Shown here one piece after another: positions 5,147 through 11,181 of a stretch of 11,181 nt of DNA (positions within the stretch are counted from its first letter, which is position 1; each line of letters begins with the position of its first letter). The position numbers were made by a program, and so were the translations under genes. Where the stretch lies: positions 1 through 11,181 of the forward strand of contig JAUWXV010000118.1 in the NCBI GenBank assembly GCA_030616165.1, written 5' to 3'. The notes below the pieces were generated by a model, which searched no databases, had not been told where the DNA came from, and saw only the letters and a list, made by a program, of their open reading frames with translations. This DNA is from a bacterium. Lineage in GTDB: Bacteria > SM23-31 > JAUVVT01.

Positions 5147-5357
5147 CTAAAAATTAAACTATTAAAAAATAGTGAAAATTTTAAAAATAATTTATTGTAT
5201 TTTAAAAAAATAGTCCTAAATTGAAATTTGTAATGTATCAAAAATTTCTATTCTATTTCTGTTATTTTTTTCAGAATAAAGATTCAAGACAAATTATTTG
5301 GGCTCGTTACCGAATCATATTAAAACAATTATCCTTATTGTCATTCCCACAAAAGTG

Positions 5358-5505
5358 AGTGTTGCAGAGCTATTTTTTTATCGTTCCGAGTAAATCCCGA
5401 AGGACGAAGTCGAGGAACTTCCAGCTAATTTGAGATTTCTCCACTACGTCCCCCGAGTACTCGGGGGACTTCGGTCGAAATGATACAGAGGTGTTGTGCA
5501 ACACT
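5358..5505. mobile_element. 148-bp MITE-like non-coding element
   Basis: The segment begins AGTGTTGCA (5358-5366) and ends TGCAACACT (5497-5505), a perfect 9-bp terminal inverted repeat. It is flanked on both sides by the 10-base direct repeat CACAAAAGTG, as expected of a target duplication. It has no coding capacity. Inside are a copy of the ATTTCTC...TCGAAATGA repeat (5432-5484) and a 22-bp perfect palindrome (5448-5469). The two AAAA loops sit in the same orientation, which separates a target duplication from a mere extension of the inverted repeats. No matching transposase is in the window, so any mobility would have to be supplied elsewhere. I cannot assign an IS family. Confidence 0.55.
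5448..5469. repeat. 22-bp perfect palindrome with CCCGAG core
   Basis: GTCCCCCGAGT is followed immediately by its exact complement. The inner CCCGAGTACTCGGG (5452-5465) is the core shared with 859-872 and 5558-5571. It interrupts a diverged copy of the repeat also seen at 2914-2941. Confidence 0.85.
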
Positions 5506-5552
5506 CACAAAAGTGGGAATCAAGTAATATTTTGGGGCTAAACAATGTATGG

Positions 5553-5576
5553 ATTCCCCCGAGTACTCGAGGGAAT
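5553..5576. repeat. 24-nt near-perfect palindrome with CCCGAG core
   Basis: ATTCCCCCGAGT and ACTCGAGGGAAT pair with one mismatch (5559 against 5570). The GGATTCCC...GGGAATGACA frame is a different arm set around the same CCCGAGTACTC core as 5448-5469. Confidence 0.8.
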
Positions 5577-5746
5577 GACATCTTGTGTTAATGATGTTTT
5601 GATTATTTCTAAAAAAGTATTTTCGTGAAATCCTATGAAAAAGATTAGAGATGAATGATAATGAAGTTTTAAGACTGACAAAAGGTTTATGAATAGAGCA
5701 GGATAATTATTTAAAATTTTTAAAGAATAAAAAATCAGGATTTAAA

Positions 5747-10059: not shown

Positions 10060-11181
10060 ATGGGTACATGTGTATATTATGGATGTAATGAGCATACTAT
10101 ATCATTAACCGATCATAAATATTGCGTATTTCATGCGCCAAAAGATAAAAAAGGAATTTCCGATTATGAATTTAACACATCGATTTTTGATAAAATCGAA
10201 AAAGGGAAATATGACTTTGAGGGGTATATTTTTCCTGCAGGAATTAGTTTTGAGGGAAAAGAGTTTGAAAAGGAAGTTAACTTTAAAAATGCAAAATTTG
10301 AGGGAAAATTTGAAGAATGTGGATATAGGAATTCATGTGTAATTTTTAACAAAGTAAACTTTAAATCATTAGCAAATTTTTCAGAAGCTGAATTTTCTGG
10401 TGGCACTACTGATTTCGAAGAAGCTATATTTTCTGGAAAGACTGCTTATTTTATAGAAACAAAATTTACTGGTGGCAGTGCTTTTTTCAATGGAGCAATA
10501 TTTGATAATGGATATTCTGATTTTTATGGAGCCGAATTTTCAGGGGGAGGTGCTTATTTCGGAAGAGCCAATTTTTCTAAGGGGTCTGCTAATTTTAATA
10601 AAGCCATATTTTCAGGTGGAGATGCTGATTTCTCAGAAGCAGAATTTTCTGGGGGGAATGCTAATTTCTCAGGAGCAGAATTTTCTGTTGGAAATTCTGA
10701 TTTCAGAGGAACCGAATTTTCTGGAGGAGTTGCTAATTTCAGAAGAGCCAAATTTTTAGGTGGGGGTGCTGACTTTAGATATGCCGAATTTTCTGATAAT
10801 TTAATTATTGATAAAAACATAATAAAATGTAGTTTAAATTTCTCTGATATAAAATTAAGCGATGAATCAACATTTTATTTCACAAATCCTGAATTTATAA
10901 AACCTGAAAAAAACATTAGAATAATATTTTCTAATATTCGTTTTAATCCTTTTGAAGCATATTTTGAAAATATTAATTACCCAGAAAAACATAAAAGTAA
11001 TGGTGACTTTATTAATATTGTTATCATATTTCGTTACTGCAATTTAAAAGATGTTTATTTTACTGATAGTGATATGTCATTATTTTCATTTTATAAAAGT
11101 ATATTTGAAGAGGCGAAATATTATTCATGTTTGTGGAAAGAAGAAAAAAGAATTTTTGAAGAAAGGATATATAGTTATGTA
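10060..11181 (+). CDS. Pentapeptide-repeat protein with Cys/His knuckle, 3' partial
   Basis: The frame is open from ATG 10060 through the right edge (374 codons, no stop). AGGAAAGG lies seven bases upstream. The N-terminus holds a probable zinc knuckle, Cys4-x4-Cys9-x12-Cys22-x2-His25. After a first group of loose pentapeptide-like strands (about 55-104), residues 105-247 form twelve consecutive 12-residue repeats of the type A(N/D)FxxAxFSGGx: two pentapeptide rungs plus a two-residue Gly-rich turn. This predicts an elongated right-handed quadrilateral beta-helix. Past 247 the repeats fade, then return around FRYCNLKDVYFTDSDMS (about 327-343) before a charged segment WKEEKRIFEERI. Related proteins often end in a membrane domain, which would lie beyond the window. 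The role is unknown. The A/T-rich codon use contrasts with the upstream glycohydrolase. Confidence 0.9.
   Translation, partial: MGTCVYYGCNEHTISLTDHKYCVFHAPKDKKGISDYEFNTSIFDKIEKGKYDFEGYIFPAGISFEGKEFEKEVNFKNAKFEGKFEECGYRNSCVIFNKVNFKSLANFSEAEFSGGTTDFEEAIFSGKTAYFIETKFTGGSAFFNGAIFDNGYSDFYGAEFSGGGAYFGRANFSKGSANFNKAIFSGGDADFSEAEFSGGNANFSGAEFSVGNSDFRGTEFSGGVANFRRAKFLGGGADFRYAEFSDNLIIDKNIIKCSLNFSDIKLSDESTFYFTNPEFIKPEKNIRIIFSNIRFNPFEAYFENINYPEKHKSNGDFINIVIIFRYCNLKDVYFTDSDMSLFSFYKSIFEEAKYYSCLWKEEKRIFEERIYSYV
10372..10800 (+). repeat. Tandem 36-nt coding repeats (12 copies)
   Basis: Twelve in-frame units (eleven of 36 bases and a last of 33) encode the A(N/D)FxxAxFSGGx repeats. The sequence GAATTTTCTG recurs at the same unit position in several copies (for example 10388, 10640, 10676, 10712), so part of the array probably grew by recent duplication while other copies have drifted. 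Confidence 0.9.

Follow-up and report, generated by a model that had tools for sequence, protein, structure and literature searches.

A non-coding MITE-type family at the centres of extragenic palindromes in an uncultured bacterial genome

The window analysed here is a stretch of 11,181 nucleotides, contig C334 of a ~90% complete MAG (3.74 Mb, 343 contigs). Between two divergently transcribed genes it carries a 187-bp block, in which the two halves of a palindrome enclose a short segment with inverted ends. How did this block arise and, if the segment is a mobile element, what brought it to the middle of a palindrome?

The interrupted palindrome

The segment splits an extragenic palindrome of 24 bp, GTCATTCCCACAAAAGTGGGAATC, at its centre (Table 1). 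A preliminary description of the locus had proposed a MITE-like insertion with terminal repeats AGTGTTGCA (5358-5366) and TGCAACACT (5497-5505), equal ten-base flanks CACAAAAGTG (5348-5357 and 5506-5515), and AAAA loops that read the same way on either side, all of which we found in the sequence. Removal of the segment together with one flank indeed restores the hairpin ATTCCCAC-AAAA-GTGGGAAT. The terminal inverted repeats are perfect, as had been claimed, but the element measures 152 bp with 11-bp ends, and not 148 bp. The ORF list of the window has no frame of at least 60 aa within 5356-5507.

Table 1. Features of the window at and around the interrupted palindrome.
Feature	Position	Strand	Remark
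Phosphotransacetylase-like gene	start 5075	-	flanks the element
Interrupted palindrome, left half GTCATTCCCACAAAAG, including the left duplication copy	5340-5355	+	same half adjoins the ends of other copies
6-bp target duplication, left copy CAAAAG	5350-5355	+	identical to 5508-5513; arrangement in 11/12 complete copies
MITE, 152 bp	5356-5507	+	ends set by comparison of 12 complete copies
Left terminal inverted repeat TGAGTGTTGCA; family consensus TGNNTGTTGCA	5356-5366	+	
Inner palindromic module 1 (atcgttccgag...gaggaacttcc), degenerate GTCATTCCGAG...GAGGAATCTCC type	5380-5422	+	12-copy alignment
Inner palindromic module 2 (gagatttctccactacgt...acttcggtcgaaatgat), inverted relative to module 1	5432-5484	-	
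Perfect hairpin CCCCCGAGTACTCGGGGG, nested in module 2	5450-5467	.	other hairpins instead in other copies
Right terminal inverted repeat TGCAACACTCA	5497-5507	-	
6-bp target duplication, right copy CAAAAG	5508-5513	+	
Interrupted palindrome, right half CAAAAGTGGGAATC	5508-5521	+	empty counterpart at L034
Second palindrome (GGATTCCCCCGAGTACTCGAGGGAATGAC), intact, inverted orientation	5551-5579	.	also present at L034
ORF beyond the element	start 5747	+	other flank

The target in the window is a two-palindrome (BIME-like) repeat, the first palindrome of which is uninterrupted at another locus of the same genome, L034. The window copy (L001) and this empty site align at 80% over 150 bp, the second palindrome included. 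L053 is the closest relative contig, at 76% protein identity, and stops 87 bp upstream of the neighbouring gene. When joined, the window target reads ATTCCC-ACAAAAGT-GGGAAT, which fits the dRS3 repeat of Neisseria, defined as ATTCCC-N8-GGGAAT; this likeness concerns form alone. Farther along the window, a tandem array with 36- and 72-base periods (10522-10796) contains a + frame of repeated LISEEPNF-like units with a pentapeptide-like look.

Folding of the 187-nt block gave z = -7.8 as RNA and -5.6 as DNA. The block forms one long stem, in which the arms of the palindrome run on into the terminal repeats. Because the element folds as a long hairpin that extends the stem of the palindrome, the site stays palindromic after insertion. 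In the alignment of the copies, the inner part of the element is made up of two palindromic modules, one inverted to the other. Units of the module 2 type also stand alone elsewhere in the genome (e.g., L011, L025, L027, L029), and the hairpin within module 2 varies among copies. At L006, L007, L013, L140 and L151 a further palindrome, of the TCCGCCAAAGGCGGATCC type, lies in the inner hairpin or has been swapped for it, which adds a third layer of nesting. Itself lodged in a palindrome, the element thus brings further palindromes with it.

Copies, target duplication and empty sites

The segment is not unique to the window. It has 51 matches in its own genome, of which ~10 are nearly full length, with 73-84% identity, and this is well above what chance would produce. 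Further copies were gathered by searching this genome for right ends, left ends and bare terminal repeats; reversed-pattern controls for the right-end and left-end searches gave 4 and 3 matches, respectively. In total, ~23 related loci were found, and 12 of these are complete with both ends, spanning 135-189 bp. As the preliminary description had anticipated, these many copies each have their own flanking repeat, albeit one of 6 bp.

The choice of site is strict. Out of 35 ends counted as genuine, 32 adjoin an ATTCC half-palindrome with its central 6-mer at the same point, the arm at L003 being one base shorter. Another end (L016) adjoins a decayed half-palindrome, and the remaining two (C311) adjoin a tandem copy of the element across CGAAAG/CTTTCG. 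We left out 13 extra weak end matches that had neither the 6-mer nor the palindrome and look like chance. On C311, three MITE right ends fall within ~670 bp (L024, ~1340-2010), two of them in tandem with a shared CGAAAG, as if a duplicated centre had been re-used as target or copies had recombined.

All complete copies but one, 11 of 12, repeat the central 6-mer directly on both sides; the two 6-mers are identical in 8 of them and have one mismatch in 3. The identical pairs are CAAAAG/CAAAAG, CGCAGG/CGCAGG, CGAAAG/CGAAAG (three times) and CTTTCG/CTTTCG (three times), and hence the rare variants CAAAAG and CGCAGG are paired as well. One mismatch each is found in CCTGCG/CCTGTG, CGAAAG/CAAAAG and ATTTCG/CTTTCG. 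The exception, CTTTCG/TGAAAG, is L002 (C149, 1491-1672), the sole complete copy in which like halves face each other without a direct repeat; it is probably a recombinant between two copies. Since GAAA is not its own reverse complement, the direct orientation separates a duplication from an extended inverted repeat.

The flanks of the 12 complete copies agree in 10-12 of 12 cases at each of the six central positions. Outside these positions the agreement drops: one base further to the right it is 6/12, while to the left it is 8/11 and then 6/12. This drop indicates that the duplication is 6 bp long and that the element starts with TG and ends with CA. A duplication of 4 bp combined with 12-bp ends could also be compatible with these sites, as the 6-mer is usually closed by C/G in both target and element.

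The strict choice of site might also have come about by site-specific recombination instead of transposition by staggered cut and fill-in; a tyrosine recombinase or an enzyme of the IS110/Piv type would then have joined a circular form to the target at a 6-bp core. In line with this idea, elements of the IS110 family are known to enter REPs (PMC1525189), and L002 has mixed flanks. However, a circle that carried its old core along would usually leave two unlike 6-mers, whereas in 8 of 12 copies the two are identical, even for the rare variants. Moreover, 11-bp inverted ends of the TG...CA type are unlike those of IS110. We therefore regard this explanation as very unlikely.

An even smaller chance must be given to the preliminary description's 10-base duplication around a 148-bp element, as in elements of the IS4/IS231 type. 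The ten equal bases on both sides of the window copy seem to suggest it, but this copy looks that way because its arms CAC...GTG happen to match the TG/CA ends of the element, and the outer CA/TG bases are the element's own. Across the 12 copies the agreement of the flanks declines past six positions. In copies with arms GC...GC or GC...CA, the bases beside the 6-mer differ between the two sides, because one belongs to the palindrome and the other to the element. At L003, L005, L007, L140 and L151 the flanking base is of the palindrome on one side and of the element on the other.

Evidence for an insertion, as opposed to a single repeat unit, comes from empty sites. The outer flanks of each complete copy were joined and compared with the loci retrieved from the same genome. 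Besides the window copy, four copies have an empty paralogous counterpart: L005 aligns with L219 at 82% over 165 bp, straight through the junction, L007 with L214 at 81% over 162 bp, L004 with L031 at 86% over 133 bp, and L013 with L048 at 87% over 105 bp. The preliminary description had named an empty site as a possible confirmation; sites aligning through the junction were found, as paralogues within the same genome and not as syntenic loci of relatives. Uninterrupted ATTCCYRCGAAAGYRGGAAT palindromes are common genome-wide, with 26 exact and 6 near-exact occurrences (32 together) against none for the reversed control. Wherever an exact half-palindrome is followed by TG in this genome, the palindrome is either uninterrupted or beside an element.

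It is scarcely credible, then, that the whole 187-bp block is a single repeat unit with the palindrome halves as its long outer terminal inverted repeats, even though the folded block is an almost continuous stem and the halves occur in nearly every copy: the loops are direct and not inverted in 11 of the 12 complete copies, with variants that match across the element, the element lies either way round with respect to the GTC-tagged side of the palindrome, and the empty paralogous sites with common outer flanks refute this explanation in the main. The proposal of a MITE-like insertion into an older extragenic palindrome is upheld by the multiple copies with their own flanking repeats and by the empty sites.

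A putative transposase acting in trans

At the level of sequence, the comparison demonstrates that the element, which is non-coding, entered a palindrome already in place, duplicated 6 bp in direct orientation, used the palindrome centre nearly exclusively and did so in both orientations relative to the palindrome. That a transposase was involved, that it was of the DDE type and that it is now absent is what we infer from this pattern. We consider the element in the window, with a probability of roughly 0.9, to be a copy of a non-autonomous MITE family that owed its mobility to a DDE-type transposase acting in trans, which cut the centres of palindromes with a 6-bp stagger. The family would consist of inverted-repeat transposons of ~135-190 bp without autonomy, on which a transposase encoded elsewhere would act. 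This enzyme would cut the ATTCC...GGAAT extragenic palindrome at its centre, and the staggered cut would copy the six central bases to both sides at each insertion.

No such enzyme could be linked to the family. The preliminary description had suggested looking for a full-length IS with the same ends, but none turned up in the genome, and nowhere in the assembly do exact TGNNTGTTGCA ends enclose a long element. The element ends contain a TGTTGCA motif, which we take to be IS6/IS26-family-like. That family makes 8-bp duplications and uses the IS6 transposase; a derivative of it is rejected because of the 6-bp duplication and of profile searches of the genome, in which PF13610 had no match. PF00665 was likewise absent, and an rve-type partner (IS3, IS21, IS30, IS481) is thus rejected, as the genome has no such transposase. 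Among DDE_Tnp_1 (PF01609) candidates there is one decayed fragment, L275, without TGTTGCA ends, which by eye can tentatively be called IS1380-like. For DDE_Tnp_1_6 (PF13751; IS1182-like) the candidate is L294, an intact IS whose ends (TAGGGGTTCAATATATGAGTCCACTC) are unrelated. L294 (C42) has an ORF at 913-2604 on the minus strand for an intact 563-aa DDE_Tnp_1_6 transposase, and is flanked on both sides by another palindromic repeat family (GGGCGACCACAGTGAGTCGCCCCTAC).

Other replicons and genomes were also searched. Phage and plasmid collections gave no match to the element, and 60 other genomes no complete element; among these 60, the inner modules alone match in two of the same class (G004 and G005). 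In viral contigs, 45 stretches match CGAAAGTGNNTGTTGCA, but none is preceded by a palindrome half, and these matches are attributed to chance. An apparent pair of ends in L230 was rejected as an inverted duplication in a phage contig. This duplication comprises the first ~400 bases of the viral contig (1-400) and is possibly an assembly artefact.

The divergence of the copies points to an old and probably inactive family. Most likely, the family has lost its mover, or the assembly lacks it; with a MAG of ~90% completeness, an autonomous partner could be absent from the contigs.

How would the transposase have recognised its target? The accepted targets have GAAA, TTTC, AAAA, GCAG or CTGC as their loop, oriented either way, and their inner arms vary; they share no more than the symmetric arms and the exact centre. 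Recognition of the hairpin as such is plausible. Yet, the same data would result if a transposase read the symmetric ATTCC...GGAAT arms in duplex form, and we consider it rather unlikely that the lost enzyme recognised an extruded hairpin (cruciform) instead of the duplex sequence. If it did, each insertion would preserve and enlarge its target, because the element itself is a stem-extending hairpin, and the nested palindromes would be a self-maintaining niche. With a site as well defined as 6 bp centred in an ATTCC...GGAAT palindrome, one can ask whether such transposases read hairpin or duplex. Returning to the family as a trans-mobilised MITE, its filled and empty sites support the view that palindromic repeats are safe harbours for mobile DNA.

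Comparison with known systems

The family is short and non-coding, with terminal inverted repeats, a 6-bp duplication and ~23 dispersed loci, as expected of MITEs. Bacterial MITEs such as Nezha, Chunjie, NEMIS and RUP are likewise short, non-coding, multicopy and intergenic, with terminal inverted repeats and a target duplication. The passages considered of a recent review of prokaryotic MITEs (PMC10969869) mention none that targets REP centres. They do describe the reverse nesting, in which IS1111 enters a REP inside a MITE, QMITE2 (PMC10969869). In Halothiobacillus neapolitanus, CGTC-tagged REP dimers are nested in palindromes (Di Nocera et al., 2013, PMC3733652), and the inner modules of the window element resemble an inverted REP dimer with GTC tags. 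However, no empty target palindromes were found in Halothiobacillus, and the passages considered do not mention terminal repeats or a duplication (PMC3733652), whereas the family described here has both, as well as empty sites.

The insertion of full ISs into REPs is established (PMC1525189). Our results therefore do not represent a new kind of system. ISPsy8 of Pseudomonas syringae and IS1397 and ISKpn1 of enterobacteria insert specifically into REP palindromes, and ISPsy8 enters the symmetry axis of the predicted hairpin (PMC1525189). These three are full ISs, ISPsy8 makes 3-bp repeats compared to the 6 bp found here, and the present genome gave no transposase of the rve type. In insertion behaviour, ISRm22 of Sinorhizobium meliloti (IS4 family / Transposase_11) is by analogy the closest precedent. 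Each of its copies interrupts a REP, whose consensus is highly palindromic, at the axis and with 6-bp direct repeats (Tobes and Pareja, 2006, PMC1525189), and some copies have mismatched repeats, which were attributed to recombination between copies (PMC1525189). The family in the window shares the axis of a REP-type palindrome, the 6-bp duplication and the mismatched copies (cf. L002). In contrast, ISRm22 encodes an IS4-type transposase and the window element is non-coding; the likeness is one of behaviour.

We found no REP-axis-targeting MITE in the open-licence literature searched. Hence, while the homing of ISs on REPs was already known, a MITE specific to the REP axis appears to be new. 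Palindrome-homing ISs are known from a few proteobacteria; here, the same strict habit is seen in a non-coding family of an uncultured lineage that sequence collections represent only distantly.
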